The notes under the pieces were generated by a model. It ran no database searches, had not been told where the DNA came from, and saw nothing but the letters and a program-made list of their open reading frames with translations. A stretch of 45,950 nt of DNA, taken from the NCBI GenBank assembly GCA_017429525.1, contig JAFROT010000044.1, forward strand, positions 1 to 45,950, in the 5' to 3' direction. This DNA comes from Bacteroidaceae bacterium (GTDB lineage Bacteria; Bacteroidota; Bacteroidia; Bacteroidales; Bacteroidaceae). The translations under genes and the position numbers were made by a program. Below, piece after piece: positions 9,924 through 37,866 of this stretch. The stretch's first letter is position 1, and each line of letters begins with the position of its first letter.

Positions 9924-11815
9924 AAAAGAATATAACCATCAACCTTTGTGGGCGCCTCTTCGCCATTGACGAGGATGCCTACGAGATGCTCGCCACCTAC
10001 GAGCAGTCGCTCCGTAATTATTTCCGCACGCGTGAGGGCGGCGAGGAGATAGCCGAGGATCTGGAGGCGCGCATCGCTGAGCTCTTCGACGAATTGAAGG
10101 CGAAGGGCGTCGAAGCAATAAATATAGATCACGTGCGCGAGGTCATCCATAGGATTGGAAGGCCGGAAGAGATGGAGGGAGAGGCTCCCCATTCAGCCCC
10201 CGAAGGGGCTGCGGATGCTTCGTCCTCTGCCAACAACGGACCAGAAGCCCCCTCGGGGACTGTAGAGGGTGCGAGTAAAGCTGCCAAACGCCTCTATCGT
10301 GACCCCGACGACAAGAAGCTGATGGGCGTGCTGTCAGGCTTCGCTGCTTACTTCGGCGGCGATGTGCTGTGGTGGCGCCTGGGCTATGCTGCCATTGTAC
10401 TGCTGTCGTTCGCAGGCTCGTCGTACAACTTCCTGTGGTTCCTGCCCCATCAATACCTCTATTTTCATATCTATTTCTGGGGCATCGCCCTTATCATCGC
10501 CTACGTCCTCCTCGCCGTGCTCATGCCTGTGGCCGAGACGCCCGAGGACCGGCTGCGCATGAAGGGTAAGGAGGTGAATCCGCAGAATCTGGCTGAAGAG
10601 ATAAGCCACAACCGGCCCACCTCCAACCCCTCCTCAGGGGAGGGGCGTCCGGGCTGGCAGTATGCAAGCGGAAACGAATCCCCCTCCCTTAGGGAGGGGA
10701 AAGGGGTGGCCCAGCACCGTGGCCCCTCTGGTTGCCTTGGTTGCATCGGCGGCTTCTTCGTAGCCTTGTGGACGGTCATCTCAACCCTCTTCCGCTGGTG
10801 CATCTATGCCTTCGGCGCCTTCCTCGCCGTCATGTGCCTCATCGGCATTGTCTGCCTGACCGCTTTCGCTGTGAATCCCTTTGAATTTCTAAAGGAAGGC
10901 GACAGCTTCTTCCGGACGGAGGAGTTTGCAGCGCTCGTTCCTACGTTGACCGTTCCTTTCTACATCTTCGTGGTAGCCGCAGGTATCGTCCTTGCCATCA
11001 CGGCCTACGCGCTCATCCACAGCCTCTTGAACGAGTTCAAGCAGATGCCCTCCATGCCCTATCGCCAGCGCATCGCCCTGCTCGTCATGTGGATAGCCGG
11101 ACTGGCTGTGGCAGGCGCTGCCATAGGTTATGGATTCCCAAAACTCATCAAGGCATCGGAGGAGTACAGCAGGCAGGAGTGGCAAAAACACGATGCTCGC
11201 GAGCGTGCCGAGAACACGCACGATGGCATCTATGTCAATCCTCACGAATGGAATTTCCTGCAGGACAATGGTTGGAAGATTCTGAATGCTCAAGGCTGCA
11301 ACGACCGCTTCACGACTACAGGGCAGCACCTCTCGGGCGACCGCGATGTCCGCTATCTCGATTGTTACGATGACAATCACCGCCAGCGCTACCGCGTGGA
11401 GCGGGCAGACACCCTCCAGCCCGGCACCTACCGCCTGACCTGTGCAGCCCGAGCCAATGGCACAGGAGTTTGCATCTATGTCATTGTAGGCGACCAGAAG
11501 CCTCAGTTCAAGGAGATTCCTGCTATGGGCAACACGGGAGGCGACATCTGGGTAGAGGCTGACAAGTTCGTCCATTACCATAAGGACGTTCCTATTCCCT
11601 CTGACTCTGTCGCTTACGGCAATCAGCAATGCGAATTGGTTGAGGTCAACGACCACAAAGGCTACGGCTGGAACTGCATCACCTTCGAGCCCATCCGCGT
11701 CACCGCTCCCACCGTCATCCGCTATGGCCTGACCTCCGACAATACCTTCACAGGCAAGACCTGGCTCGGCCAGTGGTTCTCCGCCACCGACTTTCAGATC
11801 ACCCGTGTGGAGTGA
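9920..11815 (+). CDS. Large PspC-domain membrane protein with in-frame palindromic repeat insertions
   Basis: A 631-aa inner-membrane protein. Residues 1-90 form a soluble region typical of Bacteroidales PspC proteins (CGRLFAIDEDAYEML, HVREVIHRIGRPEEM). A PspC segment follows (about 115-210: RDPDDKKLMGVLSGFAAYFG, then two hydrophobic spans), then about 275-320 and 340-420 with more membrane segments (four or more in total), and a C-terminal extracytoplasmic domain of about 200 residues. The start at 9920 overlaps the padR stop. Two Pro/Ser/Gly-rich linkers (about residues 92-115 and 232-265) are encoded by GC-rich palindromic elements, described separately, and do not look like conserved protein. 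The role is likely envelope-stress sensing, inferred from PspC and PadR context. Confidence 0.82.
   Translation: MKKNITINLCGRLFAIDEDAYEMLATYEQSLRNYFRTREGGEEIAEDLEARIAELFDELKAKGVEAINIDHVREVIHRIGRPEEMEGEAPHSAPEGAADASSSANNGPEAPSGTVEGASKAAKRLYRDPDDKKLMGVLSGFAAYFGGDVLWWRLGYAAIVLLSFAGSSYNFLWFLPHQYLYFHIYFWGIALIIAYVLLAVLMPVAETPEDRLRMKGKEVNPQNLAEEISHNRPTSNPSSGEGRPGWQYASGNESPSLREGKGVAQHRGPSGCLGCIGGFFVALWTVISTLFRWCIYAFGAFLAVMCLIGIVCLTAFAVNPFEFLKEGDSFFRTEEFAALVPTLTVPFYIFVVAAGIVLAITAYALIHSLLNEFKQMPSMPYRQRIALLVMWIAGLAVAGAAIGYGFPKLIKASEEYSRQEWQKHDARERAENTHDGIYVNPHEWNFLQDNGWKILNAQGCNDRFTTTGQHLSGDRDVRYLDCYDDNHRQRYRVERADTLQPGTYRLTCAARANGTGVCIYVIVGDQKPQFKEIPAMGNTGGDIWVEADKFVHYHKDVPIPSDSVAYGNQQCELVEVNDHKGYGWNCITFEPIRVTAPTVIRYGLTSDNTFTGKTWLGQWFSATDFQITRVE
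10194..10262. repeat. Palindromic element F inside the PspC-like gene
   Basis: Left hairpin CAGCCCC-CGAA-GGGGCTG (10194-10211) and an imperfect inverted copy at 10242-10262 (CAG..GCCCCCTCGGGGACTG) flank about 30 bp. It is read in frame as a Ser/Ala/Pro/Gly linker. The arms differ in sequence from elements A-E, so it is probably a separate subfamily. Confidence 0.55.
10613..10714. repeat. Palindromic element A inside the PspC-like gene
   Basis: A 102-bp (34-codon) element with near-matching ends (CGGCCCACC... / ...GGGTGGCCCAG). Each arm contains a CCCCTCC/GGAGGGG hairpin. The core carries GCAAGCGGAAACGA, which also occurs in element C in the same orientation relative to the coding strand. Its length is a multiple of three and the reading frame passes through it without a stop. 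Confidence 0.85.
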
Positions 11816-11866
11816 ACACATTACTATCCCATAGGAGCTATATTCCAAAAATAAAATGGAACGAAC

Positions 11867-14227
11867 ATGAACAAGACAAGCATTATCACCGCCCTGCTTG
11901 CCCTCGCCACTATGGCAGGGCAGGCACGAGAGAAGATGCAAGTGTGGGAGCATCCCGCGACTGAGTACGGAAACGTCTATGGCGACGGCTACTTCAACCT
12001 GTCCTTTGACGTGACGAAGGTGGAACTGAAGGAGGACGAGACGGTGGTGTACGCCACCGTGATGCTGCGGTCGGAATATCAGTTCCAATTCGTCAGCGGC
12101 ACCTACCTGAAGGCAGGTTACCTGCGTTATGCCCTGAAGTCCGCCGACGGGATAGAACTTGACAAGTACGTCCATACGGGGCGTGACGGTCGTTGCGACA
12201 TCGTCTTTCATTTCCAGCCGTTGCCGCAGGGCACCCGCTCGTTCGACTTCATCGAAGGCGATGGCGAACGTGCTTTCCAAATCAAGGGTATCAAGCCCGT
12301 GGAAGAACGATGGAAGCAGTTGTTCCCCTCATATTGGCGCGACGTGAATGGCGATTGGAAGATCGCATTCTTTGAGGATCGCATTATCTACGACTGCCGG
12401 TTCTGGACATACAAACGATGCGACGTGAACCCGAAGACGGGCGAGGCCGACATCGTCATGAGCACTGCTGGCGAAGAGCTCCACGTCAAAGTCGGGAAGA
12501 ATAAAAAAGGTACGCGCGCGATTCGGATTGGTGGTCATCAGGCCGCGTATAGCATGATTACCAGTCGCTTCCTGCCCGACTATCCGACTAAGGACACCCG
12601 CACAGACTTCGTGGATACAGGCTATGCGACAGACACCGTGACGGTAGTCGGTTGGATAAAGGATTTCCCCGAAAAGTGGGGGAAGAAGCAGACCTTCGAG
12701 TTCGGCTACGAAGACTTCCTCACGGACAAGCAGGAGAGCGCCTATGCCGACTTGGACTCCTTGGGACGCTTCATGGTGAAGATTCCTGTCCTGAACAGCA
12801 CTGAATTCTTTGGCGACTGGAAGCACTGCTTCCTCCGTACTATGTTCGAGCCTGGCAAAACCTACTTCCTGCTCTACGACTTCAAGGAGGGTCGCCGCTT
12901 CGTCATGGGCGACGACGCCCGCCTGCAGAACGAGCTCTTCAAGTACCCGCTCGATTGGGAGTCAATTCGCATGGCTGAGGGTGGCGATTTCGACCAGTAT
13001 ATCGCGTCGGTGGATAGCCTGCTCAAAGCTCAGTATGCCTATATTGACGACCTCTGCGAGGCGCATCCCTCGCTCTCCACCCGCTTCCGCCTGTATCGGC
13101 GAGGCAACACACTCTGCCAGCAGGCCGGGGATTTCGGTCAGGCACGCTTCAACAACAAGGATCTTCAATTCCCCGAAAGTGCCCGCCGCTATGCCTACGA
13201 CACGTTCTGGACGCAGATGGAGCGACCCTACACCCTGCATCGCGACCTCTGCGGCTTCCTGCGTGATTATCTGGATGATGCCAAAAGTGCGCACGCCCGC
13301 CCGTTCACGTGGAATCCAACCGAGTATGTTCAGGACCTTGTGTCGAATGACGAGGAACGGGCTTTGGTCAACCGTTGGAAGGATTGGGTAAAAGAGGCTA
13401 ATGAGGCCATTCTTCAGGCAACGACGATGGAAGAGAAGCAGCGGCTGGCCGATGAATTCAATGCCGGGAATGCCGAACTGAATGCAGGAATGACTAAAAT
13501 TCTCAATGGCCCCAAGGCCACCCGTCTCTTCAATGAGAAGTATCTCTTAGCTCGACTGAAGACTTGGCAGTCGGTGCTGGACTCGTTGGGCGCCGACCCG
13601 TTCATCAAGGATATGCGCCTCACACAGACGGTGGTTCAAGAACTCGACCAGAACCGCGCGTCGCTGTCGGCAGAAGTCCTCGACACGCTGAGAGCGATGG
13701 TCGCTAATCCCACCTGCATCGCGATGGTCGAACGACAGAACGACCACTACATCGCCATCGAGAACCGCGAGTTCGACAGGCTGGTACTTAAGTCGTCCGA
13801 CAGCCTTGCAGGCATCAGTGAAGGCGAGGCCCTGCTGCAGAAGATCCTCGAACCCTACAAAGGCAAGTTCGTGCTGCTCGACATTTGGGGCACTTGGTGC
13901 GGACCTTGTAAAGAAGCCCTCAGCCACTCCGCCGAGGAGTATGCCCGCCTGAAGGACTTCGACATCGAATTCCTTTATCTGGCCAACAACAGCCCGCAGG
14001 AGTCGTGGGAGAATGTCATCAAGATGTACGAGGTAACCGGCGACAACGTGGCCCACTACAACCTGCCACGTGAACAGCAAGCCGCCATCGAGCGCTACCT
14101 CGACGTCCACTCCTTCCCCACCTACAAGCTCTTCGACCGCGAAGGTCGTCTGCTGGATATCAAGGTTGATGCCCGCCAGCTCGATGATTTAGTTCGGTTG
14201 CTTGAGCAGTTGAAGGGTGAAGAGTGA
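11867..14227 (+). CDS. Secreted TlpA-like thioredoxin-domain protein
   Basis: A 786-aa exported protein with a C-terminal TlpA/thioredoxin fold. The signal peptide is residues 1-20 (MNKTSIITALLALATMAGQA). The active site GTWCGPCK lies near residue 675, with the cis-Pro region in HSFPTYKLFDREGRLL. TlpA-type proteins act as periplasmic thiol-disulfide reductases. The long N-terminal part has no domain I recognise. Residues around IAFFEDRIIYDCRFWTYKR and SRFLPDYPTKD, and the C-terminal NNSPQESW and HYNLPREQQAAIERYL, match the protein at 43571-45538, so the two are paralogues; this one has an added N-terminal region of about 130 residues. It lies 51 bp after the PspC-like gene and may be co-transcribed with it. 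Confidence 0.85.
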   Translation: MNKTSIITALLALATMAGQAREKMQVWEHPATEYGNVYGDGYFNLSFDVTKVELKEDETVVYATVMLRSEYQFQFVSGTYLKAGYLRYALKSADGIELDKYVHTGRDGRCDIVFHFQPLPQGTRSFDFIEGDGERAFQIKGIKPVEERWKQLFPSYWRDVNGDWKIAFFEDRIIYDCRFWTYKRCDVNPKTGEADIVMSTAGEELHVKVGKNKKGTRAIRIGGHQAAYSMITSRFLPDYPTKDTRTDFVDTGYATDTVTVVGWIKDFPEKWGKKQTFEFGYEDFLTDKQESAYADLDSLGRFMVKIPVLNSTEFFGDWKHCFLRTMFEPGKTYFLLYDFKEGRRFVMGDDARLQNELFKYPLDWESIRMAEGGDFDQYIASVDSLLKAQYAYIDDLCEAHPSLSTRFRLYRRGNTLCQQAGDFGQARFNNKDLQFPESARRYAYDTFWTQMERPYTLHRDLCGFLRDYLDDAKSAHARPFTWNPTEYVQDLVSNDEERALVNRWKDWVKEANEAILQATTMEEKQRLADEFNAGNAELNAGMTKILNGPKATRLFNEKYLLARLKTWQSVLDSLGADPFIKDMRLTQTVVQELDQNRASLSAEVLDTLRAMVANPTCIAMVERQNDHYIAIENREFDRLVLKSSDSLAGISEGEALLQKILEPYKGKFVLLDIWGTWCGPCKEALSHSAEEYARLKDFDIEFLYLANNSPQESWENVIKMYEVTGDNVAHYNLPREQQAAIERYLDVHSFPTYKLFDREGRLLDIKVDARQLDDLVRLLEQLKGEE

Positions 14228-14228
14228 A

Positions 14229-14375
14229 TAATCTCGCTTCGCTCGGAATGACGAATGACAAATGACGAATGACAAATGACGAATGACAAATGACGAATAA
14301 GAGTTACCTTCAGGATTGGAAAGTAACTTTGATTCGTCATTTCGAGCGCAGCGAGATTCGTCATTTGTCATTCCT
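14229..14375. repeat. GAATGAC-type inverted repeat, copy 2
   Basis: Begins within bases of the TlpA-like stop codon with ATCTCGCTTCGCTCGGAATG, then tandem GACGAAT/GACAAAT units to about 14299. The centre GAGTTACCTTC ... GGAAAGTAAC is an inverted repeat. The right arm returns as CGTCATTTCGAGCGCAGCG and CGTCATTTGTCATTCC. The overall architecture equals copy 1 at 9001-9170, and the palindromic head recurs at 18226-18265. Confidence 0.8.
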
Positions 14376-14443
14376 CCTGGTTTCTCTTTCGTCCTGAATT
14401 GATAAGTTCAACAGCAGCAGGGAAGAAATAATTTCCCATTTTC

Positions 14444-14474
14444 TTGTCGCTATCGGCAAAATATGATACTTTTG
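14444..14474 (+). promoter_or_regulatory. Promoter of the CAT-like gene (TTG-N20-TACTTTTG)
   Basis: TTG at 14444-14446, 20 bp, then TACTTTTG at 14467-14474, matching the Bacteroidota consensus. The ATG is at 14533. Confidence 0.75.
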
Positions 14475-16650: not shown

Positions 16651-16655
16651 AAAAC

Positions 16656-16857
16656 AGACCCACCCCCAGCCCCTCCCGTCAGGGAGGGGAGAGGGGCTGG
16701 CGCAGTGAGCGATTATTTGAATTATTAATAGGAATAGGCATTGATGATGTCGTTACGATTGATGGACAATTCTTGTTTGGTAACTTTTCCCCCCTCCCTG
16801 ACGGGAGGGGTTCTCGAAGTGTCGAGCGTCCCTTTGGGCCGAGCGGGGGGTGGGTCT
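16656..16857. repeat. Palindromic element B between the M28 and AlkD-like genes
   Basis: Perfect 12-bp terminal inverted repeat AGACCCACCCCC (16656-16667) / GGGGGTGGGTCT (16846-16857). The inner hairpin CCCCTCCCGTCAGGGAGGGG at 16670-16689 is repeated inverted at 16791-16810 with the same GTCA loop. The right arm has about 33 extra bases (16811-16843) not present in the left arm. The AT-rich core of about 95 bp differs from the other elements. Confidence 0.85.
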
Positions 16858-18197: not shown

Positions 18198-18225
18198 TTA
18201 ATGATTAACTCGTTTTTAATGACGA

Positions 18226-18265
18226 TTCTTCATTCTTCATTCCGAGCGAAGCGAGATCCCTCATT
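18226..18265. repeat. GAATGA-type palindromic repeat, partial copy 3
   Basis: On the minus strand the segment reads GGGATCTCGCTTCGCTCGGA then two or three GAATGAA units. The same head (ATCTCGCTTCGCTCGGAATG) begins copy 2 at 14229. The repeat overlaps the last codons and the TGA stop of the GH97 gene. Confidence 0.75.
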
Positions 18266-21279: not shown

Positions 21280-21321
21280 AGAAAAAAAGGGCAGCGTCGG
21301 CACTGCGGCCGGCGACTGCCC
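21280..21321 (-). terminator. Intrinsic terminator of the first transducer operon
   Basis: On the minus strand GGGCAG...CTGCCC (21289-21321) encloses a second GC-rich stem (GCCGGC/GTCGGC) and is followed by seven T residues. It lies about 65 bp after the stop of the outer-membrane gene. A near-identical hairpin follows the second transducer gene. Confidence 0.85.
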
Positions 21322-21387
21322 ATCGGAGAGAGAGAGTATTTATGGATTAAAAGAGTTGCAGACCACTCTGAGTCAATTGCAGACCAC

Positions 21388-23979
21388 TCAGAGTCGGTTC
21401 TTCTCGGCATTGCCGGCGCCCGTGCCCTTGTACTTGCTCTTGGTCGAGTTGAAGTAATAGACGATGCCGAGTTGGAAGTAGCGGGATTGCTGATACTCCT
21501 TGATGCTATACTGGTAGCGGGTGTTGAAGAGGGCGATGTTGTAGTGGTCCGTGCGGAAGATGTCGCTCATGTAGAGTCGGGCCAGGAGTCGCTTCTGGAG
21601 GAAATACTTGTCGATGCCGAAGTTGAGACGCTGCGAGGGTTCGCTACGCACGAACTGGAAGGCGTGGGGGCTGGAGTATTCATAGTTGAGCCGGATGTTC
21701 CAGTCGTGGGGCAGACGCAGGAGGTTGTTCAGCTTCAGAATGACGCCCAGCCGCTCGAGGTTCTCGGTGATGCCGAATTGTCGGTAGTCGAAGAACTGAC
21801 GGTGGAGGTCGATGGAGGCCTGCGGGTACCACGGCCCGAAATGCGGGCTGGCGCTGATGTTGAGCTTGACGTGACCACGGCGAGGAACGTTCATGTAGGT
21901 GGAGAACATGAGGTCGGAGGTATCGTCGTAGGTGGTGGTGAAGTTGGTGTGGGAGTTGCGGACGTAGTCGTACTCCAGGGCCACGTTCAGCCATTGCCAG
22001 GCGAGGCTGTACTCGAAGGCGTAGTTGTACTGCGTCTTCAGGTGCGGGTTGCCGCCTTGGTAGCGGAAGTGCGATATGTAGTTGACGGCGCTTGACAGGT
22101 TGCTGTAGGAGGGGCGGTAGGCCAGCGTGCGCATCCCCAGCCGATGCTGCCAGCGCCCGTGCCGCCAGACGATGTTGAACGTGGGCAGCAGGTGGTGCTC
22201 ACTGCGACTCTGCTCGGGGACGAGGATGGCCTGTTCGTAGTAGTCGTTGGCGTTGTGCTCATAGCGTGCGCCGAGGCTGAAGAGCCATTCCGAGCGGTTG
22301 TACTCCAGTTCGGCGAAGCCGGCAATCATGCGTTCATTGATCCGATTGTCCGATGCCCGGACGATGCCTTCCTCATTTTCATGCTGCTGCGTGTAGCGGC
22401 TGTCGGTAAATTCCGAGCCAAACTCCGTCTTCCAATGGTCAGAGAAGGGATAGGTCATCACGAGCTTGGCCGCCCACATGGTGCCGTGGCTCTCGGAGTG
22501 GGTGGTGACGGGTTGGTCGCCATATTCGCGGCTGTGCTCCTCCACCCAGGTCGTGCCCTCGCTGTTCTTGCGCAGCCAGGTGCCGTTGAAGTCCACGCCG
22601 AGCTGCCCGAACCGACCTTGGTAGTAGGCATCCAGCGTGGGTTGTGTGCTACGGTAGGCTTCGCGCTCATGAGCATCGATGGTGCCAGAGGGCTGACCGT
22701 CGGTGAGGTAGCTGGTGGTGCTGTTGGAGTAGTGGTATTGTTCGGTGGGGTTGACAGCCTCGTTGAAACGAACGCCGACGCTGTGGTTGTCGCCAATCTG
22801 GTAGTTCATGCCAGCTGTGACGCGATAGGTCTGGTAGCGGTCTTTCATCGTCCAGTCGTGTTCCTCGTTGATGTGGTGCTGGTTACCCGTGTACTCTGCC
22901 AGCGTGTGGTCGTCCACCTGCCAATAGTAGTTCGTGTAGTCGAAGTCGGCAAAGACATCGAAGTTGCCCTTGCGGTAGTTCAGGCGGGCATAGTCGAACA
23001 TCGTGTGCTTCACGGTCCAGCGGTTGTAGTGCGAGAGGCTGCCGCTGAAGCCTTCGCCCTGACGCCGACGGGTGCGGATGCGGATGACGGAAGCGACGTT
23101 GGAGGCATACTGCGGACCTGGGTTGGTGATGACTTCGATGTCCTTGATGTCCTTGGATTGCAGCTGCCTGAGTTCGTTTCGGTCGCGCATGAGGCGACCA
23201 TTGATGTAGATGAGCGGCGCGCCCGTGCGTCCGATGATGCTCACCTTGTCATCCTTCACCTGCACGCGTGGCAGTTGCTCCAGCACGTCGAAGACAGTAC
23301 CCAAGTCGGCCAGCACCGTACCTTCCACGTTGCTCATGTAGCCGCTCTTGGTCATGCGGTACTTGGGCAGGTCGCCTTTCACGGTCACGCCCTTCAGCGT
23401 CTGCGGTAGAGGCTCCAGCTGAATGATGCCGAGGCTGTCGGCATCGCATCTTCTCCAATATGTCTTGTGACCTATATAGCTGATTTTCAATATCGCATCC
23501 TGCTGCGCCGAAGGAATGGCGAAGTATCCGCTCTCGTTCGATACGCCACCGCCAAGCAGCGTGGAGTCTTGGGACGAGAGGATGGCGATGTTGGCGAACG
23601 CCACGGGCTGGCTTTGTTCGTCGATGATGGTGCCCGTCAGGCGGCGATCGGTCTTGTGGCTACACTCCACGAAGATCTCACGGTCTTCCTCTTTCACCGT
23701 CATGCGGATGGGATAGAAACCGATCATCTGCCGGATGGCGTCGGGCACGGAAGCGTGGTGGATTGTGGTGGTGATGCGGAAGTCCTCCAGTTCGTTGTAG
23801 AGGAAGTTGATGACGTAGGTCGTCTGCGCGTTGTTCAACTGGAGCAGGGCTTCACTGAGCGACAAACCATCGAATTTACAATTTACGTATTTACCATTTA
23901 CTATTTGCTGCGCCTGTGAGCTGATAGCCTGCAACAGGGCAAGAAGTAGGAACGTTAAGATATAAAATGTGCGTCTCAT
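21388..23979 (-). CDS. TonB-type outer-membrane transducer with STN domain (beta-barrel family), copy 1
   Basis: An 863-aa outer-membrane protein with signal peptide 1-23. A secretin/TonB short N-terminal (STN) domain follows (about 35-105: LSLSEALLQL, RITTTIHHASVPDAIRQM), then a carboxypeptidase-regulatory-like domain (TDRRLTGTIIDEQSQPVAFA, about 112-195), a plug (about 210-310: YINGRLMRDRNEL, IEVITNPGPQYASN) and a C-terminal beta-barrel. The STN domain plus upstream ECF sigma and anti-sigma genes indicate a cell-surface signalling transducer: ligand capture outside is passed to the anti-sigma factor. Start and anti-sigma stop overlap (ATGA at 23976-23979). The ligand is unknown; no SusD-like lipoprotein follows. 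Its N-terminal 200 residues are far more similar to copy 2 than the barrel is. Confidence 0.88.
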   Translation of the reverse strand: MRRTFYILTFLLLALLQAISSQAQQIVNGKYVNCKFDGLSLSEALLQLNNAQTTYVINFLYNELEDFRITTTIHHASVPDAIRQMIGFYPIRMTVKEEDREIFVECSHKTDRRLTGTIIDEQSQPVAFANIAILSSQDSTLLGGGVSNESGYFAIPSAQQDAILKISYIGHKTYWRRCDADSLGIIQLEPLPQTLKGVTVKGDLPKYRMTKSGYMSNVEGTVLADLGTVFDVLEQLPRVQVKDDKVSIIGRTGAPLIYINGRLMRDRNELRQLQSKDIKDIEVITNPGPQYASNVASVIRIRTRRRQGEGFSGSLSHYNRWTVKHTMFDYARLNYRKGNFDVFADFDYTNYYWQVDDHTLAEYTGNQHHINEEHDWTMKDRYQTYRVTAGMNYQIGDNHSVGVRFNEAVNPTEQYHYSNSTTSYLTDGQPSGTIDAHEREAYRSTQPTLDAYYQGRFGQLGVDFNGTWLRKNSEGTTWVEEHSREYGDQPVTTHSESHGTMWAAKLVMTYPFSDHWKTEFGSEFTDSRYTQQHENEEGIVRASDNRINERMIAGFAELEYNRSEWLFSLGARYEHNANDYYEQAILVPEQSRSEHHLLPTFNIVWRHGRWQHRLGMRTLAYRPSYSNLSSAVNYISHFRYQGGNPHLKTQYNYAFEYSLAWQWLNVALEYDYVRNSHTNFTTTYDDTSDLMFSTYMNVPRRGHVKLNISASPHFGPWYPQASIDLHRQFFDYRQFGITENLERLGVILKLNNLLRLPHDWNIRLNYEYSSPHAFQFVRSEPSQRLNFGIDKYFLQKRLLARLYMSDIFRTDHYNIALFNTRYQYSIKEYQQSRYFQLGIVYYFNSTKSKYKGTGAGNAEKNRL

Positions 23980-24815
23980 CTTACCACCAGCTTTTTGTCT
24001 TCTACGCCTATGTTCACGGCTTCAAAGGTGTTCAACTTCTCTACGATGCGGTCGAGGCTGTCTTCGCGCTTCCAGATGAAATGGAAACGAAGCTGGCGAG
24101 CCGATTCATTCTCAAACTCCACCTGTACCCCGTGGGCTGCGGCAATGGCTGTGAGCATGGAGTCAAGTGGCACATTGTTGAAGACGTAAGGCTCGGACGG
24201 GATGGTTTCTGTCTTAATCGTATCTGCGACCAAGGAATTGCCGGGCTCGATGTCAGGCGCTTGCTCCGTCGTGGCCAATTGCGGCTTGGAAGTGTTGATG
24301 TTGCGCACGATTTGAATGGCGGCGAAGGCGATGCCCGAAACGAGGAGCACACCAATGAAGGAGGCGGCAACTTTGTGGTAAGGAATCGGCCCACCCCCAG
24401 GAAGCCAACCCCTAGGAAGCCAACCTCTATCTGGCCCACCCCTATCCCCTCCCCAAGGGAGGGGAACTCGTTTCCGCTTGTTTTCCGAGGATTGGGACTC
24501 CCCTCCCTTGGGGAGGGGCAGGGGGTGGGCCAGTTGGGAGTGGCCCAGTTGGGAGTGACCCAGTTGGGAGTGGCCCAGTTGGGGGTGGGCTTCCTGGGGG
24601 TGGGCCTTCACAAACTTCTCCCATTCGGCGTCCACGTCTGGGGTGTCGTCAGTCAGCTCATCATGTTTGAAAGCACGCTTAGCAAAGCTAAGTTGCTGCA
24701 CGAGCTGGCGCATCTCTTCGTCGGCAAGAATCTGCCGCAACTTTTCGTCGGTCAGCTCCTCGGGGTGTTCCTGTAGTTCCAGAAGCCACTCTATACGTTG
24801 CTCTTCGGTCATCAT
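23976..24815 (-). CDS. Anti-sigma factor (FecR-type, short, DUF4974-like C-terminus) carrying palindromic element C
   Basis: A 279-aa single-pass inner-membrane protein between the ECF sigma gene and the transducer gene, with ATGA-type overlaps at both ends. Residues 1-75 are the cytoplasmic sigma-binding part (EEQRIEWLLELQEHPEELTD). Residues about 146-168 are the membrane span (VAASFIGVLLVSGIAFAAI). The last 70 residues are an STN-like DUF4974 domain (FNNVPLDSMLTAIAAAHGV), the periplasmic contact for the transducer. There is no room for the usual FecR beta domain between span and C-terminus. Residues about 71-143 (LGHSQ repeats, PLPKGGES, PLPWGGDRGG, GWLPRGWLP) are encoded by palindromic element C and are absent from the paralogue at 28350-29000. 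Confidence 0.85.
   Translation of the reverse strand: MMTEEQRIEWLLELQEHPEELTDEKLRQILADEEMRQLVQQLSFAKRAFKHDELTDDTPDVDAEWEKFVKAHPQEAHPQLGHSQLGHSQLGHSQLAHPLPLPKGGESQSSENKRKRVPLPWGGDRGGPDRGWLPRGWLPGGGPIPYHKVAASFIGVLLVSGIAFAAIQIVRNINTSKPQLATTEQAPDIEPGNSLVADTIKTETIPSEPYVFNNVPLDSMLTAIAAAHGVQVEFENESARQLRFHFIWKREDSLDRIVEKLNTFEAVNIGVEDKKLVVR
24388..24606. repeat. Palindromic element C (nested) inside an anti-sigma gene
   Basis: Outer perfect 19-bp inverted repeat GGCCCACCCCCAGGAAGCC (24388-24406) / its complement (24588-24606). Inner perfect 12-bp repeat CTGGCCCACCCC (24431-24442) / GGGGTGGGCCAG (24522-24533). Inside are two CCCCTCCCCAAGGGAGGGG-type hairpins with identical loops around a core that contains CGTTTCCGCTTG (plus strand). 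Between inner and outer repeats are short direct repeats (GGAAGCCAACC; CCAGTTGGGAGTG). The 219 bp equal 73 codons. Confidence 0.9.
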
Positions 24816-25315: not shown

Positions 25316-25667
25316 ACACTTATAAGACAGCTCAGACCAAGAAAGTGTAAAGCGGAAACGCGTTTTTTTCAAATCAAACTCAGTTTTTGAGGTATTTTAA
25401 TCTATTTATTTGATAATTTTCACTCTGTGTTTTTGAAAGTGAACAATAGATTCATTGTTCGACAGACTGGGCAAATAGCAAAAATGCTTCAATTATGCCA
25501 TGACGAGAAAACGAAGGATGAAATCCAACTCAGACGTGCCGACCAAGAAGTCCTCGATATCGCAGATTTCGCGCTTAATTTATTTAAATGGGGCAGCGCC
25601 GGCACTGCGGCCAGCGACTGCCCATCGAAGAGAGAGTATTTATGGATTAAAAAGAGTTGCAGTATGT
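25316..25667. other. Intergenic region between the two transducer operons
   Basis: Holds the presumed promoter of ECF operon 1 on the minus strand (TGTCTTATA near 25319-25327 and an A-tract AAAAAAACGCG near 25361) and, further right, the hairpin and conserved 3' tail of the second transducer gene. About 150 bp in the middle (25400-25580) is AT-rich, with nothing I can assign. Confidence 0.5.
25591..25623 (-). terminator. Hairpin after the second transducer gene
   Basis: GGGCAG/CTGCCC stem nearly identical to that at 21289-21321, together with a shared flank (GAGAGTATTTATGGATTAAA). Here the T-tract is replaced by ATTTAAAT, so termination efficiency may be lower. Confidence 0.55.
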
Positions 25668-28340
25668 TCAGAGTCGGTTGCGCTCGCTCTGTCCCGCATG
25701 GCTGCCCTTGTAGCGGCTGCGGGTGGCGTTGAACTTCCACGAGAGGTCGATGCCGATGCGGCGGCCATCGCGATACTCCTTGAATTGTGTACGGACATTG
25801 ATGCCACCGTATGCCGTCATCTCTATGTAGCGAGTGTGGAGGATGTCGTTAGCAAGGATGGCTACGCTAAGACTCTTGTCTTTGAGGAACTGCTTGCTGA
25901 GCCGGAGGTCTATTCCGCCTGTGGCCTTCGTCTGCGAGCAGCCCTGCTCATTGTAGGGCTCCAGTTCCATTCTGATGTTTAGCAACCAATCGTGTGGCAG
26001 TGATAATGTATTGTCAAGATTAAAGTAGGTACCAAGTCCGTTCCACTTATGCTTGATGCCGATGGCTTCTAAGTCTCGGTTGTTGAAATAGAAATCTGCA
26101 GAGTAGTTCATCTGCCAGATACCAATCTTTGGCGAGACGCTAACTTCCATTCCGTAATTCTGGCTTTTGGGCACATTGCGGCGGTCATCGAGTATTACGC
26201 CTGGATGGTCTATATCATCATAGGCGACCTGAAAAGAATAGTTGAGGTTCTTGATGTATTGGTAATACAACTCGGCGTGAACCCATCGGTAGTTAGTCGT
26301 CCATGAGACATAATGGGTTGTTGTAGGGCTAAGGTAAGGGTTTCCCGTCTGGTACTCGTATTTGCTGCGATAGTTGATGGCCGTGCTGAGCGTGGAATAA
26401 GTGGGGTTGCGCCGGAAACATTGATAACTGAGGGTGTGCATCCAATTCTCCGTGCGGTAAGTCAGAGAGAGGCGCGGGATGAGCACATGGTAGTTGGGAC
26501 TCTGCTCGAGGTCCTTCTGCCCATTGGTTTCGTAGTCATTGTGCTCGTTCTGCCAACGCAATCCGCCATTGAGACTGAACTTCTTCACTTGCAGGGCATA
26601 GTTGGCGAACAGTGACCACGTCACGGTCTGTTGGTGTACGCTATTGTCGGCAGAAAAACCGCTTTGGGTGAAGTCGCTTTTGCGGTCCACTCCCGATACT
26701 TCTTCGCCGAAGGTCAAAGTGCCTTTAGGGACGGGTGCTGTGACGACGAGTTTCTCTGCCAACAGGTTGTTCTTGGTCAGCGTATTGCTGCTGACTCCCT
26801 TCTCGCCAACGGTGCCACCTTCCATATTGCTCTCGGAATGTCCACCGTAGTAGTCGGCACTGAAGTCCAGTTTCCACTTGCCTATTTCGCCGACGTAGTA
26901 GGCATTCACAGCATGCTCCATCCGAGGCTTTCGAGAGGTAACCGTCTTGTTGGTCTCCGCTTCCTTGAATTGTCCATCACGCCACACCTCCTCGGCGGTC
27001 TCTATGCTACCTGTAGCATCGGTGATATAGTTGTTGGCGGTGTAGGTCAGTCCGAGAGAATGTTTCTCTGATATCTCCCAGTTCCAGCCGAGGTCGGCAA
27101 AGTAGTAGTTGTAGCGGTTGAGAAAGGTGATTTCTTTCTTAAAGTTCCATAAGCTGGAGGCCTGTAGTTGGTCATTGGCAATGGAGTTAATAACCTGATT
27201 GTTGCTTGTCAGAAACCCTCGAGCGAAGAAGTCCATGCCGTTGCGGGTTCGATAGTTCAGGGCTGCATTTCCATTGGCATAATTCTCTTTTCCTTGGCGG
27301 TAGACCGCGGAGAAGTTGCCGCTCCAGCCTTCGCCCGTCTTGCGGATGGTCTTGAGGCGAATGACGGAGGTGACTTCTGCGCTGTATTCCGCGCCGGGGT
27401 TGGTGATAATCTCTACCGACTGAATCTCGTCGGCACGCAGTCGGTCGAGTTCTTGCGCGTTGCGCACCTTTTTATTATTGATATAGATTTCCGGTTTGCC
27501 GTGACCTGCTACTTCGCCGTTGCTCATCATGAGGGGCAGATGGCTGAGCATGCCACTCACAGAGCCGAATTGTTCAAATGGAGTGCCCTGAACAGGAACC
27601 AGCAAGCCTCTTTCCGTTGAAGTATAAAGCAGTTGGTGGCCTTTCACCGTCACGCCTTTCAGGGTATAGTTATCTGGCTGCATCGTGATGGTTCCCATTG
27701 CTGGCTGTTCACATATCTTGTAGATGGTCTTGTAGCCGACGTAGGAGATGCGGGCGAGGACGACCTCTTGCTCGTATGGGATAGCGAAGTAGCCGCTCTC
27801 ATTGGAGACGCCACCGCCAAGGAGTGTGGAGTCGGCAGGATTGAGGATCGTGATGTTGGCGAACGCCACGGGCTGGCTCTGTTCATCGATGATGGTTCCT
27901 GTCAGTCGACGGTCGGTCTTGTGGGTGCATTCCACGAAGATCTTCTTTCCTTCTAGGTTCGTATCATCAACAATCATGCGGATGGGATATAAACCGATCA
28001 TCTGCCGGATGGCGTCGGGCACGGAAGCGTGGTGGATGGTGGTGGTGATGCGGAAGTCCTCTAGTTCGTTGTAGAGGAACATGATGGCGTAGTCGGTCTG
28101 CTGTTCGGCAAGTTGGCTGAGGGCTTCGCTGAGCGACAAACCGACGAATTTACCATTTACGTATTTACCATTTACTATTTGCTGTGGCTGAGCCGTGCCA
28201 TTTGCCTTTTGTTCTGCCTGAGTCGGACCATTCACCATTTGCTGCGCTTGTGCCGGACTGAACGATAGCGACAAAATGGCGACGAACAAATAAATTGTAA
28301 ATCGTAAATCCTTAAATTGTGAATATGAGAGTCTATTCAT
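25668..28340 (-). CDS. TonB-type outer-membrane transducer with STN domain (beta-barrel family), copy 2
   Basis: An 890-aa paralogue of the transducer at 21388-23979 with the same order: signal peptide, STN domain (LSLSEALSQLAEQQTDYAIM), regulatory-like domain, plug (IYINNKKVRNAQELD, VEIITNPGAEYSAE) and barrel. The STN and regulatory-like domains are almost identical to copy 1 (for example YNELEDFRITTTIHHASVPD in both), whereas plug and barrel have diverged. Between signal peptide and STN there are about 25 additional residues of repeated VNG/QQ-type sequence (QQMVNGPTQ, ANGTAQPQQ) encoded by AATGGTAAAT-like DNA. It follows the anti-sigma gene by 9 bp. It likely senses a different ligand from copy 1 while using a similar signalling interface. 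Confidence 0.88.
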   Translation of the reverse strand: MNRLSYSQFKDLRFTIYLFVAILSLSFSPAQAQQMVNGPTQAEQKANGTAQPQQIVNGKYVNGKFVGLSLSEALSQLAEQQTDYAIMFLYNELEDFRITTTIHHASVPDAIRQMIGLYPIRMIVDDTNLEGKKIFVECTHKTDRRLTGTIIDEQSQPVAFANITILNPADSTLLGGGVSNESGYFAIPYEQEVVLARISYVGYKTIYKICEQPAMGTITMQPDNYTLKGVTVKGHQLLYTSTERGLLVPVQGTPFEQFGSVSGMLSHLPLMMSNGEVAGHGKPEIYINNKKVRNAQELDRLRADEIQSVEIITNPGAEYSAEVTSVIRLKTIRKTGEGWSGNFSAVYRQGKENYANGNAALNYRTRNGMDFFARGFLTSNNQVINSIANDQLQASSLWNFKKEITFLNRYNYYFADLGWNWEISEKHSLGLTYTANNYITDATGSIETAEEVWRDGQFKEAETNKTVTSRKPRMEHAVNAYYVGEIGKWKLDFSADYYGGHSESNMEGGTVGEKGVSSNTLTKNNLLAEKLVVTAPVPKGTLTFGEEVSGVDRKSDFTQSGFSADNSVHQQTVTWSLFANYALQVKKFSLNGGLRWQNEHNDYETNGQKDLEQSPNYHVLIPRLSLTYRTENWMHTLSYQCFRRNPTYSTLSTAINYRSKYEYQTGNPYLSPTTTHYVSWTTNYRWVHAELYYQYIKNLNYSFQVAYDDIDHPGVILDDRRNVPKSQNYGMEVSVSPKIGIWQMNYSADFYFNNRDLEAIGIKHKWNGLGTYFNLDNTLSLPHDWLLNIRMELEPYNEQGCSQTKATGGIDLRLSKQFLKDKSLSVAILANDILHTRYIEMTAYGGINVRTQFKEYRDGRRIGIDLSWKFNATRSRYKGSHAGQSERNRL

Positions 28341-28349
28341 GGCGGCAGT

Positions 28350-29000
28350 CTATTCTACGATGATTACATTGTCCTTCAGCGTGACCTTCAGGCAATTGAA
28401 CTGGTTGAGGTCGCTGACGACTTGGTCTATGCCCTGCTGCGGATTCCAGACAAAGCGGAAGCGGAGTTCACGGGCTTCGTCGCTCTGGAACGTGACCTTG
28501 GCATCGTAGTGGGCAGCTATCTCCGCCAGCATCTTCTTCAACGGGATATTGTCATAGACGACAGGCTGCACGACGAGCGTGTCGTTGCCGAGCGTATCGG
28601 TTGGAGCCACATTTATGGGCGTTGCGTCATTGACGACTACTTCTGTCTTGGGTGACCATTGCTGCGTGTGTCTGATGAGTTGGATGGCCGCAAAGGCGAT
28701 GCCAGATACGAACAATACGCCAATGAATGAGGCGGCAATTTTCATGCGCCTAAGGTTTTGATGTCTGGGTTGCAGTTGCTGCTCAAGCCTTTGCCAGGCA
28801 CCATCCACGTCCACAGCCGCGTCCGCCTTTCGCCGGCGGCTGCTGCGTTTGGCCTCAACCATCAGGTTGTAGGCCTCTCGGGTATCGTCATCATGATTGA
28901 TGATGTCTTCTATTTCCTGCTCCGTATATGCCTCGGGATTATCAAGCATCTCCAGCAGTCGGAGGATGTGTTCTTTGGTCGTCTCCATAGGAATTGTCAT
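28350..29000 (-). CDS. Anti-sigma factor (FecR-type, short, DUF4974-like C-terminus), transducer operon 2
   Basis: A 216-aa single-pass membrane protein, paralogue of the anti-sigma at 23976-24815. The cytoplasmic part is residues 1-80, the membrane span about 85-107 (IAASFIGVLFVSGIAFAAIQ) and a C-terminal STN-like domain (YDNIPLKKMLAEIAAHYDAK to KVTLKDNVIIVE). The central FecR domain is missing, as in copy 1. Only 19 residues separate the conserved Trp (DGAWQRL) from AASF, against 84 in copy 1, so this gene shows the uninterrupted form. The start may be 29000 or Met5; the former leaves one base after the sigma gene. Confidence 0.87.
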   Translation of the reverse strand: MTIPMETTKEHILRLLEMLDNPEAYTEQEIEDIINHDDDTREAYNLMVEAKRSSRRRKADAAVDVDGAWQRLEQQLQPRHQNLRRMKIAASFIGVLFVSGIAFAAIQLIRHTQQWSPKTEVVVNDATPINVAPTDTLGNDTLVVQPVVYDNIPLKKMLAEIAAHYDAKVTFQSDEARELRFRFVWNPQQGIDQVVSDLNQFNCLKVTLKDNVIIVE

Positions 29001-33863: not shown

Positions 33864-33874
33864 AGCAAGAGCTT

Positions 33875-34762: not shown

Positions 34763-34802
34763 ATTCAAAACACTTAATGGTTGATAAATATTACATCGGC
34801 TG

Positions 34803-35099: not shown

Positions 35100-35141
35100 A
35101 TTCTTGACAGATGTTTTATCGAAAGAGGTTGTTGTCTTTTG

Positions 35142-35171
35142 CAAAGGTACTGCTTTCCACTTGAACACAAA
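35142..35171 (-). promoter_or_regulatory. Thioredoxin promoter (TTTG-N18-TACCTTTG)
   Basis: Minus-strand -7 TACCTTTG at 35142-35149, with TTTG at 35168-35171, spaced 18 bp, one short of the usual range. Confidence 0.6.
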
Positions 35172-35225
35172 AACTTTTCACTCTAATTTGCTCCATACGC
35201 TCGATAAAAAGCCTTTTTAACATCT

Positions 35226-35753
35226 TCAGCGCTTCAGTCCGTCTGTTTTTACCTCCAGCACGTAGCCGCGCTTCTTCAGGGAGGTGATGGCGAGCGTGTT
35301 GTCTGCCGCAAGCAGATGGCGGAGGTAAGAGATTTGCACGTTTAGGGCGAGGGAGTTGGCATAGCTGGCATTGCCCCACACGCGTTCGAGGATGAAGTCG
35401 CGCTCCACGATGCTCCCAAGGTCTTGAGCCAGAAGGAGCAAGATATCACTCTGCCGCACGGTGAGGTGCTGGCGCCTACCTGCATACTCGATGGTGGCGA
35501 GGTTGGGATTGAAGAGGGTGTGGCCGAGGAGGAAGGGAGAAGACCCTCCCCCCTGTCCCTCCCTTGTAGGGAGGGGAGTAGGATGTATCAGACCTGATGA
35601 AGGAATGTCGCCCTCCAAGGTATATACTCCCCTCTCTACAAGGGAGGGGCAGAGGGGAGGGTCCAAGTCTATTTGCTTAGTTCTTTCCTTTATCCTCGCT
35701 ATCAACTCCTCCGGGTAGACCTGCAAACTGACTTCGTCCGCCGTTCGCCTCAC
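35226..35753 (-). pseudogene. 5'-truncated response regulator with OmpR-type DNA-binding domain and palindromic element D
   Basis: The 175-codon frame encodes the end of a receiver domain (TDDVVVRRTADEVSLQVYPE, then ELIARIKERTKQ) and a full winged helix (EYAGRRQHLTVRQSDILLLL, FILERVWGNASYANSLALNV, SLKKRGYVLEV). The phospho-acceptor part of the receiver is absent. The frame stays open upstream for at least 50 codons but without an ATG and without receiver-like sequence. No histidine kinase gene is near. About 45 residues between receiver remnant and DNA-binding domain (PPLCPSLVERGVYTLEGD to PTREGQGGGSSP) come from palindromic element D. Translation from GTG 35753 could still yield a DNA-binding protein, so it may not be wholly dead. 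Confidence 0.65.
35542..35663. repeat. Palindromic element D inside the response-regulator remnant
   Basis: About 122 bp. The left arm (35542-35580, GACCCTCCC... with loop TTGTA) and right arm (35625-35663) are inverted copies over 39 bp with few mismatches. The 44-bp core is homologous to the core of element E when read in the coding orientation. Confidence 0.9.
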
Positions 35754-35950
35754 TACTACGTCATCGGTGCGACCTTCGAGGAAGTCAGATGATGAGGCCT
35801 CTTGGAAGCGTTCAGAAATGAATGCGCAACTATTGAAAAACGTTAAATCTTCGAACTCTGAGCGTGACTTTGACGAACGCTTTGCGTATGATAAGTGTAA
35901 GCAGTTATGAAAGCAAAGCCGACAAGAAAGATGTGAATCTGAACGCCGAC

Positions 35951-35988
35951 TGTTCGGAAATGAACACGCAGGTGTTCGGTAACGAACA
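35951..35988 (+). promoter_or_regulatory. Paired activator-site palindromes, copy 1
   Basis: TGTTCGGAAATGAACA (35951-35966) and TGTTCGGTAACGAACA (35973-35988), each an inverted repeat, with start points 22 bp apart. The same pair with the same spacing occurs at 41934-41971. Confidence 0.7.
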
Positions 35989-36044
35989 ATAACGCCACAC
36001 TGTAGAAACGGCTTTCTCCTTCAAAACCAAAGCATTGCCATTTT

Positions 36045-36059
36045 TGGCACACCTTTTGT
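36045..36059 (+). promoter_or_regulatory. Sigma-54-like promoter, copy 1 (TGGCAC-N5-TTGT)
   Basis: TGGCAC at 36045-36050 and TTGT at 36056-36059, with GG to GT spacing of 10 bp. The last base of the -12 element is T rather than C, so it may be weak or decayed. The next gene on this strand starts about 400 bp away. Confidence 0.5.
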
Positions 36060-36179
36060 TAAGAAAAGGACGGCATAAAGCAGCTAAAGAGAAAAAGTAC
36101 GCTCGGCCCGAAGAGTGGCTTGAAGACGAAGCTAAGTGTTTCGGCAGGAAAGACTTTCTTCGAGCAAGGCGAGACAGAA

Positions 36180-36316
36180 GAAAAGTAAACGCTGAAGAAA
36201 GCCTAGGCATTTAGGTGATCTCATTCACCTGAAGTAAATTTTCTTCGATCGCCCCGCTGCGTCGTGAAAGGCTACAGGTAGGCGAGCTTGCTCGGGAATG
36301 ACGCGACGGGGATTTT
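36180..36316. repeat. Conserved intergenic repeat with GC-rich hairpin, copy 1
   Basis: Starts GAAAAGTAAACGCTGAAGAA and is almost identical to 40287-40393. It includes a small hairpin AGGTGA/TCACCT and the stem CCCCGCTGCGTCG...CGACGGGG. Relative to copy 2 the hairpin loop has about 30 extra bases, themselves containing GCGAGCTTGCTCG. Confidence 0.85.
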
Positions 36317-36385
36317 GTCAAAGATACTCTATCATACAAAAGAGCGTTTTTCTTAGATACAAGGTGAAAACAGAGCACAAATGTT

Positions 36386-36393
36386 TATCTTTG
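36386..36393 (+). promoter_or_regulatory. -7 element (TATCTTTG) upstream of the fourth ECF gene
   Basis: TATCTTTG about 70 bp before the ATG at 36462. No clear -33 partner. Confidence 0.55.
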
Positions 36394-36461
36394 CAGCCGA
36401 AAGTTCCTTTTTATGTTTCTTTAACGTTGAAGAATCCGCCTTTCAGCGTGATAAATGTGTA

Positions 36462-36962
36462 ATGCAAGATCAAGAAATCCTCCAGCTCATCCCTCGCCTG
36501 CGCCCATTGGCTTTCGAAATCGGGCGTCAGTTCTTCGGCAATACCGAGGATGCGGAGGACGTGGCGCAGGACACGTGTCTACGTCTGTGGGCTGCACGCA
36601 GCCATATAGATGTCTCACAATCCATGGAGCCTCTGATGGCGAGGATAGCAAAAAATGTGTGCGTGAGTATGTGGAGGAAGCGTTCGGTAGGGAATGAGGC
36701 AGACATCGTTTCGGATTTCCCGTCTGATGACACCTCTCCTCAAGCCTTGCTTGAAGAGCGCGAAGATGCCATTTGGGTCGAACACCGGTTGCGGGCTCTG
36801 CCTGAATACCTCCAGCGTGTCCTGCGCCTAAAGCAAGAAGAGGGGCTCACCACCGAGCAGATTGCCGAAATCCTGGGCACAGACCCGCACTCAGTGCAAA
36901 CCCTCATCAGCAAAGCCCGCCGACAACTGATGAATGAACTCAAACGCCGATACCGCAAATGA
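36462..36962 (+). CDS. ECF-type RNA polymerase sigma factor (fourth)
   Basis: A 166-aa sigma factor with region 2 (LIPRLRPLAFEIGRQFFGNT, EDVAQDTCLRLW) and region 4 (LPEYLQRVLRLKQEEGLTTE, QIAEILGTDPHSVQTLISKA). The start at 36462 (MQDQEILQLI) fits the family; the longer frame to 36381 would read through the -7 element. It is followed by a membrane anti-sigma-like protein and a large secreted protein, the same layout as the third ECF operon (29729-31819), though the proteins differ. Confidence 0.93.
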   Translation: MQDQEILQLIPRLRPLAFEIGRQFFGNTEDAEDVAQDTCLRLWAARSHIDVSQSMEPLMARIAKNVCVSMWRKRSVGNEADIVSDFPSDDTSPQALLEEREDAIWVEHRLRALPEYLQRVLRLKQEEGLTTEQIAEILGTDPHSVQTLISKARRQLMNELKRRYRK

Positions 36963-36984
36963 ACCCTCAAACATCGTTACAACA

Positions 36985-37866
36985 ATGAAAAATAATAACC
37001 CTCAAACCCCAAAGGGAATAGCATCAGGTGATTCTTTAAGCGTGAAGCCACCCATTGGGGCGAGCGCTGTCGCTGAGTTCCTTTCTCGTTTCCTCAGTGG
37101 CCTCACTACAGCTGAGGAAGAGCGCCTGCTCCGCTCGGCAATCGAAACCAAGGCAGCCCATGGAACTGCGCTCACTGAAGACGAGCGTGCTGCCTTTGCC
37201 ATCTTACGACTCTCCTTTCCCGAAGAGGATACAACCACGCTGTTAACAGAAGACCTCAGTGATGAATATGAAACCTTGATTGCCAATAGACAGACAATCC
37301 AGTCGAGTTTGAATTTCAACAACAGCGGATTGATACATCATCGTTCCCTTCCCCTGCATTCACGCCTCTTCCGCATTGCAGCCTCCTTCACAGCCATAGC
37401 AGCCGTTTTCGCGCTCGCGTTCCTTATTATAATTAAAGATAAGCCTGCTCATCCAACGGAAAAAGAAAGCCAGGAGCTAATCTCATTATCCTCGGTAGAA
37501 CATGAGGTAGGGGAAACCCTGGACTCTCCCCCCGAGGACTCTCCCTCTGCCCTGGACTCTCCCCCCGCCCTCCCTGCTAGGGAGGGAGCAGTCACCCTTG
37601 TAGGCAGCAATCCTTCATCCAGTCTAATGCATTCTGCTCCCTCCCTAGCAGGGATGTCGGGGGGAGAGTCTTTGAGGGGAGGGCCTGTGTCTTCGGGGGG
37701 GGAGTCTGACTCGGCTTCACATCCTATCGACGACCCTGATGGTGCCGCCATCCTCGCAGCCGAACAGCAACGTATCATTGAGGCAGAGGCGGCTGCAATG
37801 GCACGTGCCATTGCCGTTCAACAGGAAAACACCCTCGCAAGCCTCAAGGCAACGTCCCCGTCGTAA
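36985..37866 (+). CDS. Probable membrane anti-sigma factor carrying palindromic element E
   Basis: A 293-aa single-pass membrane protein 22 bp after the fourth sigma gene. The N-terminal cytoplasmic part includes AVAEFLSRFLSGLTTAEEER and ALTEDERAAFAILRLSFPEE, like the helical sigma-binding regions of other anti-sigmas. The membrane span is about 129-151 (IAASFTAIAAVFALAFLIII). The outer part is low complexity: residues about 180-241 (LDSPPALPAREG, SLAGMSGGESLRGG) are encoded by palindromic element E. The C-terminus is an Ala/Glu helix (AAILAAEQQRIIEAEAAAMA). Function is inferred from position and topology. Confidence 0.7.
   Translation: MKNNNPQTPKGIASGDSLSVKPPIGASAVAEFLSRFLSGLTTAEEERLLRSAIETKAAHGTALTEDERAAFAILRLSFPEEDTTTLLTEDLSDEYETLIANRQTIQSSLNFNNSGLIHHRSLPLHSRLFRIAASFTAIAAVFALAFLIIIKDKPAHPTEKESQELISLSSVEHEVGETLDSPPEDSPSALDSPPALPAREGAVTLVGSNPSSSLMHSAPSLAGMSGGESLRGGPVSSGGESDSASHPIDDPDGAAILAAEQQRIIEAEAAAMARAIAVQQENTLASLKATSPS
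37522..37707. repeat. Palindromic element E (nested) inside an anti-sigma gene
   Basis: Inner perfect 12-bp inverted repeat GACTCTCCCCCC (37555-37566) / GGGGGGAGAGTC (37659-37670), enclosing two CCCTCCCTGCTAGGGAGGG-type hairpins with the same loop. An outer imperfect repeat GACTCTCCCCCCGA (37522-37535) / TCGGGGGGGGAGTC (37694-37707). Core 37592-37633 is homologous to that of element D. The whole is read in frame. Confidence 0.9.

Follow-up and report, generated by a model that had tools for sequence, protein, structure and literature searches.

Palindromic elements in frame in genes of a Bacteroidaceae bacterium share their ends with a small element encoding a DUF559 nuclease

Contig JAFROT010000044.1 of a Bacteroidaceae bacterium (GenBank assembly GCA_017429525.1) contains, within the 45,950 nt analysed here (the window), five palindromic elements, A to E, four of which lie inside open reading frames (ORFs) and one at a gene start. 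To our knowledge, no mobiliser of palindromes found in frame inside bacterial genes has been known so far, and the question raised by this locus is where such elements come from and how they spread. The original prediction, a note made from the window sequence alone, had described the five as one family, but had missed that they share their ends with larger copies carrying a gene for a nuclease of the DUF559 family (PF04480; Vsr/EDxHD/homing-type nucleases). We consider it probable that the palindromes are non-autonomous derivatives, resembling miniature inverted-repeat transposable elements (MITEs), of a small element encoding such a nuclease, and that they spread by nuclease-driven copying. 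Loci and genomes are cited by our own L and G numbers where they need to be told apart.

All five elements were found at their predicted places in the window, A, C, D and E in open frames and B between two genes:

10613..10714: element A, two inverted units, in frame within the PspC-domain gene 9920-11815 (+).
16656..16857: element B, GACCCACCCCC, GTCA loop, in the gap that separates an M28 peptidase gene from the start of a DNA-alkylation-repair gene.
24388..24607: element C, carried in frame by a FecR-type gene of the reverse strand; a 15-nt repeat occurs four times in tandem at 24521-24595.
35542..35663: element D, GACCCTCCCCCC, TTGTA loop, within the open frame of a Trans_reg_C protein, 35226-35753 (-).
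37555..37670: element E, GACTCTCCCCCC, within the open frame 36934-37866 (+).

The single plan ascribed to the five is real, but the arms differ by subfamily, being GGCCCACC in A and C, GACCCACC in B, GACCCTCC in D and GACTCTCC in E. In an independent search, C, D and E ranked within the window's 25 longest inverted repeats, with arms at 24431-24465/24499-24533 in C (91% complementary), 35542-35580/35625-35663 in D (92%) and 37555-37591/37634-37670 in E (95%). The right unit of element B is split by about 34 nt. A comparison of the window with Rfam at gathering thresholds gave no match.

The family extends far beyond the window. Its core hairpin, defined by the pattern CCCTCCC-N(2-8)-GGGAGGG, occurs 7 times in the window, compared with none in 100 dinucleotide shuffles, and 128 times in the 3.3-Mb genome, where the reversed-pattern control gave 0; the genome thus holds many more copies than those underlying the original prediction of a dispersed family. 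The hairpin is present in 54 of the 61 genomes of the genus (0-157 copies each) and in 68 of 393 genomes of an order-wide sample, mostly with 1-13 copies, the outliers besides the own genome having 61, 51 and 33. Most named records of the relatives belong to rumen or gut metagenome-assembled genomes (MAGs) labelled Prevotellaceae, Bacteroidaceae or Bacteroidales, and the closest relative by the PspC protein is UBA4372.

In the sampled stretches of the own genome (649,752 bases, partly selected for containing hits), a unit consists of a C-rich arm of about 12 nt, 2-4 nt, a hairpin of about 18-20 nt and an inner stretch, which in the listed units often begins with AGYRG, a feature compared informally with the GTAG/CGTC foot tag of repetitive extragenic palindromes (REPs). 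The usual element is made of two inverted units around a core of about 30-300 nt, and single units occur too. Among the subfamilies seen, the loop is GTCA in GACCCACCCCC, TTGTA in GACCCTCCCCCC, TGTTA-like in GACTCTCCCCCC and CTGTTA in GCCTCTCCCCC, while GACCCCCTCCCC has CTCCCCC stems. Across 30 unit pairs, the match within an element (0.84) exceeded that to units of other elements (0.763; 0 of 10000 permutations).

A search of the own genome with PF04480 gave four places, all of which (4/4) lie between a left unit and an inverted right unit of the same arm-hairpin class. DUF559 matches were found in 37 of the 61 genomes of the genus. From the 74 places scoring at least 73 bits, 33 loci were drawn for a flank test (the 4 of the own genome and 29 others, mostly the best match per genome), the threshold being the 99th percentile of 1000 random positions from own-genome stretches (maximum score 33). 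Inverted repeats above this threshold bracketed 29 of the 33 DUF559 loci, compared with 1 of 47 other genes of 300-700 nt (20 stretches) and none of 21 loci of RAYT-like transposases. The bracketed elements measure 445-678 nt between their outer ends, with one of 975 nt (median 513, n = 29), and their DUF559 endonuclease has about 125 residues. The search that found the arms used no hairpin criterion, and an internal stem of at least 6 is present in 25/29 and 27/29 of them, the shuffled-arm means being 6.6 and 8.0. A full element, of about 0.45-0.7 kb, consists of a terminal unit (C-rich arm plus GC-rich hairpin), the DUF559 gene and the same unit inverted; the short copies have just the two terminal units and a short core.

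The connection between the two kinds of element lies in their ends. The DUF559 element L342 of G015 is bounded by 36-nt sequences, GGCCCCTCCCCCGACCCCTCCCCTGTTAGGGAGGGG, and the short element L413, on another contig of that genome, carries the identical 36 nt on either side. In the own genome, L002 contains a short element of the CTGTTA end type, which is also that of the DUF559 element L331. Within the window, the units of B, C, D and E match the ends of DUF559 elements better than all 100 shuffles of each unit, and the left unit of B agrees with an end of the DUF559 element L355 at 35 of 36 positions. Because the ends are shared in this way, the window elements are better read as non-autonomous derivatives of larger DUF559-carrying copies than as a stand-alone palindrome family. 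The number of hairpins follows the presence of the nuclease, with a median of 30 in genomes with DUF559 (E < 1e-10; n = 34) compared with 2 in those without (n = 27; p = 1.9e-6), values that are uncorrected for relatedness and MAG completeness. Among the cores of short elements in the sampled own stretches, no significant DUF559 remnant was detected except in L058, where the ORF of a phosphoglycerate mutase continues into a DUF559 domain, flanked by two units of one subfamily.

As to the nuclease itself, its profile matches PDB 3hrl (E 2.4e-27) and PDB 3r3p, described as 'Mobile intron protein' (E 1.2e-8), which we take to be I-Bth0305I. The best PADLOC model for the protein is a homing endonuclease, and the NCBIfam vsr model gives a weak match (E 0.0042) below its cut-off. 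In the literature, DUF559 is assigned to the EDxHD homing endonucleases (PMC9403480) and a Vsr-like DUF559 protein of Caulobacter is described (PMC12907096). No target-site duplication was found around the 29 DUF559 elements, the only ones measured: the longest shared string averaged 4.59 for the two flanks of one element and 4.41 for other pairs, and reached 8 or more in 0 of 29. Considering both the absence of a target-site duplication and the homing-type relatives of the nuclease, nuclease-driven copying would be the best-supported path of movement. The DUF559 nuclease would act both in cis and in trans, with either the element ends or the empty target as its substrate, and repair of the break would then copy an element in, in a homing-like manner; the hairpin ends may be either recognised by the nuclease or helpful in strand invasion. 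Copies would be kept where the frame remains open or at junctions of operon genes, where the core may give a new start codon.

The distribution of the short elements was examined in the sampled stretches, whose genes were called by a script of our own, so that every cluster counted as intragenic has an open frame by construction. The 52 clusters in these 0.65 Mb comprise 25 intragenic ones, 24 between co-directional genes, 2 between convergent and 1 between divergent genes; tandem, convergent and divergent junctions account for 58,449, 15,745 and 18,495 intergenic bases, respectively. The intragenic hosts include histidine kinases, MacB-like permeases, TamB and outer membrane proteins. They also include threonine synthase, orotidine monophosphate decarboxylase, an AIRS-domain enzyme and phosphoglycerate mutase, and the insert can sit inside a domain, as in the decarboxylase, where it starts about where the Pfam match breaks off. 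The claim that the intragenic copies are restricted to linkers of membrane or regulatory proteins is therefore not borne out genome-wide. At some operon junctions the core of the element supplies the start codon of the next gene; for a MacB-like gene, the G058 relative starts with MKQAFRIISRMKGY and the own-genome copy with an element-encoded peptide. That the elements act as cassettes for gene starts is an idea based on such single cases.

The full elements are also found inside genes, 18 of the 74 strong DUF559 places lying within open frames of at least 250 residues. The fusions examined with Pfam join DUF559 to phosphoglycerate mutase, to GcpE (IspG) and, in two genomes, to guanylate kinase (DUF559-guanylate kinase), while in L339 the DUF559 domain lies within a Polysacc_synt_C domain, whose match is split into two stretches. 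The host frame is not always kept, because in L336 it meets a stop before the DUF559 element. Some sites are used in more than one genome, namely those in phosphoglycerate mutase (L331, L342, L351) and in guanylate kinase (L340, L343). Similarly, L330 and L345 share a junction that follows a gene named EtfA-like from its translation, and the upstream flanks of L335 and L353 are similar. These shared sites fit either homing or common descent.

Occupied and empty sites were found for the short elements as well. One empty site lies in the window itself:

28350..29000: FecR paralogue without insert (-), an empty site for element C, about 70 residues being absent in the alignment.

The start of a gene called Hsp15-like from its translation has no element in G017 and G070 and carries different elements in G000, G015, G058, G063 and G018; a histidine kinase site is empty in G058 and G063, and the MacB junction in G058. 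The PspC linkers vary in the same way, as far as can be judged from the readable rows alone (many of the 81 rows of this comparison, limited to the first tblastn segment, were unreadable). At the site of element A, orthologues from close relatives carry other palindromes, and distant orthologues have a short linker rather than the same linker without a palindrome. At element B, the homology of the relatives to the flanking genes ends at the element. Relatives of element D occur in G058 and elsewhere in the own genome. Element E recurs whole, core included, in G058, G015 and G018, where six further open frames hold it at 80-89% identity over 99-122 nt; the same element frame is read in all six, which are open frames rather than verified genes. 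The dispersal and the behaviour likened to that of the Rickettsia palindromic elements (RPEs) in the original prediction are borne out by these observations. A site may carry different subfamilies in different species, which we read as replacement or repeated use. The syntenic sequence retrieved from G057, the closest genome, was too short to define exact junctions.

DUF559 genes between inverted repeats are not confined to this genus. We hand-picked 22 plasmid loci from the 40 rows listed of 48 records, omitting near-duplicates and some weaker rows, in a set that excludes records of Neisseria, E. coli and P. aeruginosa. Flanking inverted repeats scored above all 200 shuffles in 15 of the 22: Deinococcus 4/4, Sphingomonadales 6/6, Cyanobacteria 3/6, Azospirillum 1/2, Sinorhizobium 1/2, Photobacterium 0/1 and Methylobacterium 0/1. 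An internal stem is present in 13 of the 15 (comparison with plain shuffles). In the hpa operon of Deinococcus, two genes overlap in one species and are separated in another by TGA, a DUF559 element and ATG. The chances seem to us evenly balanced that DUF559 elements form a cross-phylum class of mobile DNA (a single Vsr-like nuclease between inverted ends tipped by hairpins, inserted without duplication of the target and tolerated, unspliced, in the frame of core genes), whose short derivatives would account for many C-rich palindromic repeats of Bacteroidota, Cyanobacteria, Deinococcota and Alphaproteobacteria.

Several observations weigh against an origin of the palindromes from DUF559 elements. 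Element A matches DUF559 ends poorly, its left unit scoring no better than shuffles and its right unit only barely better. G017, with 123 hairpins in a MAG that is 80% complete, has no DUF559 above the cut-off, and the same is true of four other genomes with 23-35 hairpins. The DUF559 clade is only weakly correlated with the end sequence (rho 0.125; 52 of 2000 permutations). Seven of the 22 plasmid loci are not bracketed, nor are most distant viral DUF559-like loci, only 2 of 27 being bracketed above shuffles, both holding the same AT-rich string. Moreover, both the movement of the elements and the activity of the nuclease are deduced from sequence. Finally, homing accounts for conserved sites, but not by itself for short copies at many new sites; their dispersal would need relaxed targeting or another step.

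The number of hairpins correlates about equally strongly with RAYT-like genes (medians 35 compared with 2.5, p = 2.2e-5, again uncorrected for relatedness and MAG completeness), which occur in 37 of the 61 genomes (NCBIfam REP_Tyr_transpos, below its cut-off). The palindromes might accordingly be elements of the type of REPs or bacterial interspersed mosaic elements (BIMEs), whose paired inverted GC-rich hairpins at many sites they resemble, mobilised by a RAYT (Y1 HUH) transposase. However, no RAYT locus (0/21) is bracketed by units of the window family in the test in which 29 of 33 DUF559 loci are, and RAYT genes carry other palindromes, of the GCTGCGGC and GCCGCTGT types, in their own linker. 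In addition, REPs and BIMEs are mostly extragenic, whereas 25 of 52 clusters are intragenic here (in stretches partly chosen for hits). In spite of the good copy-number correlation, RAYT was rejected as the mobiliser on account of flanks and linker palindromes, and we regard this explanation as very unlikely. Still less credence can be given to MITEs of a conventional DDE transposon, which the palindromes resemble in being short, in lacking genes and in having terminal inverted repeats: what speaks against such an origin is the absence of a target-site duplication around the DUF559 elements (the short ones were not measured), and no transposase was seen between such ends, in the course of work that included no genome-wide transposase search, the partner found carrying DUF559.

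It is also conceivable that the hairpins are old, that selection on RNA or DNA structure, together with gene conversion, maintains or reshapes them, and that whole elements move little. The presence of different subfamilies at one site across species, with a core that is sometimes shared, would agree with this, as would the 24 of 52 clusters between co-directional genes and the single units in phage contigs. However, whole elements with their core recur in unrelated open frames, empty sites exist, and each end of an element is more similar to its partner than to the ends of other elements; we therefore consider this explanation unlikely.

By its behaviour, the nearest known system is that of the RPEs, short palindromic elements which, according to two reports, lie in frame inside unrelated genes (PMC3733652, PMC10969869). 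The window family resembles them in its 25 intragenic clusters of 52 and in its relatives in six different open frames. It differs from RPEs, which were compared by description, in that its relatives are rumen Bacteroidales MAGs rather than Rickettsia, and in having a coding partner, DUF559, with the same ends. Known EDxHD/Vsr-like homing endonucleases are reported in PMC3943268 to reside in introns or to be free-standing in phages. The full element resembles them in encoding what is, by sequence, a nuclease of a homing family, 3r3p being a sequence relative, and in its occupied and empty alleles, seen between species (the Deinococcus hpa operon for DUF559, several sites for the short elements); it differs in having inverted repeats tipped by hairpins on both sides of the gene, and in having short derivatives. 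As with inteins, the nuclease can be embedded in a host protein whose reading frame stays intact. However, Pfam revealed no protein-splicing domain at E 0.001 in seven DUF559 proteins, fused to a host domain or alone (L331-type, L332, L336, L339, L340, L342 and L343). The double-hairpin elements and GC clusters of mitochondria, compared by description alone, are also GC-rich double hairpins thought to be mobile, but are organellar. A literature search for in-frame palindromes in Bacteroidetes or Prevotella, or for DUF559/Vsr with inverted repeats or MITEs, gave no such element among the matches listed, subscription journals being mostly outside its reach.

What is new is thus the probable origin of the palindromes, as shortened copies of a minimal single-nuclease mobile element that settles in working genes without breaking them. 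If this is true, DUF559, a common unnamed domain, gains a role and a class of repeats gains an origin; an element whose ends look like those of a transposon would be driven by a nuclease not known to transfer strands. Insertion into core genes such as those of guanylate kinase, IspG and phosphoglycerate mutase would be tolerable as a plain fusion, and would be a route to new linkers, termini and fused domains.

Some additional observations concern palindromes of other types. In L082, L083, L085, L091, L097 and L098, the variable linkers of RAYT-like genes hold in-frame palindromes of the GCTGCGGC type, the GCCGCTGT type and others, unlike the window family. REPs inside tnpA-REP genes have been reported for subclass 2.4 (PMC6006769). 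The PspC gene of element A contains a further palindrome, which matches scattered places in other genomes of the genus:

10181..10272: second palindrome, GCCCCCGAAGGGGC type, older-looking, in frame in the same PspC gene as element A.

BLAST searches with short elements gave no match in phages; in plasmids, one query gave none and the other a single Novosphingobium record. In viral contigs, arm plus hairpin was seen in 36 stretches, some of about 70% GC and a few as inverted pairs; in L295, L297, L299, L306, L316 and L321, phage genes start a short distance downstream of single arm-hairpin units. In L365, a Pseudanabaena plasmid, the DUF559 gene lies between inverted repeats of just under 90 nt, each composed of two hairpins with a GCCCCCTAAATCCCCC motif; motifs of this type are, we believe, common in cyanobacteria.

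As regards the window elements, the inner TTACCTTTG motif is a candidate promoter, and the G-rich side a candidate G-quadruplex. The 34 nt or so that split the right unit of B (16811-16844) contain CTCGAAGTGTCGAG, and are perhaps a nested insertion. The receptor/FecR regions 21284-24374 and 25586-28742 are paralogous, with about 80-90% DNA identity in patches, one with element C and one without. The gene 35226-35753 (-), which holds element D, has Trans_reg_C as its sole domain match and a start resembling the end of a receiver domain; its upstream part seems to be missing or frame-shifted. Finally, tandem 14-mers of the ATTCATCATTCGTC type are present in several intergenic places and in both orientations, at 9070-9153, 14246-14298 and 18225-18242.

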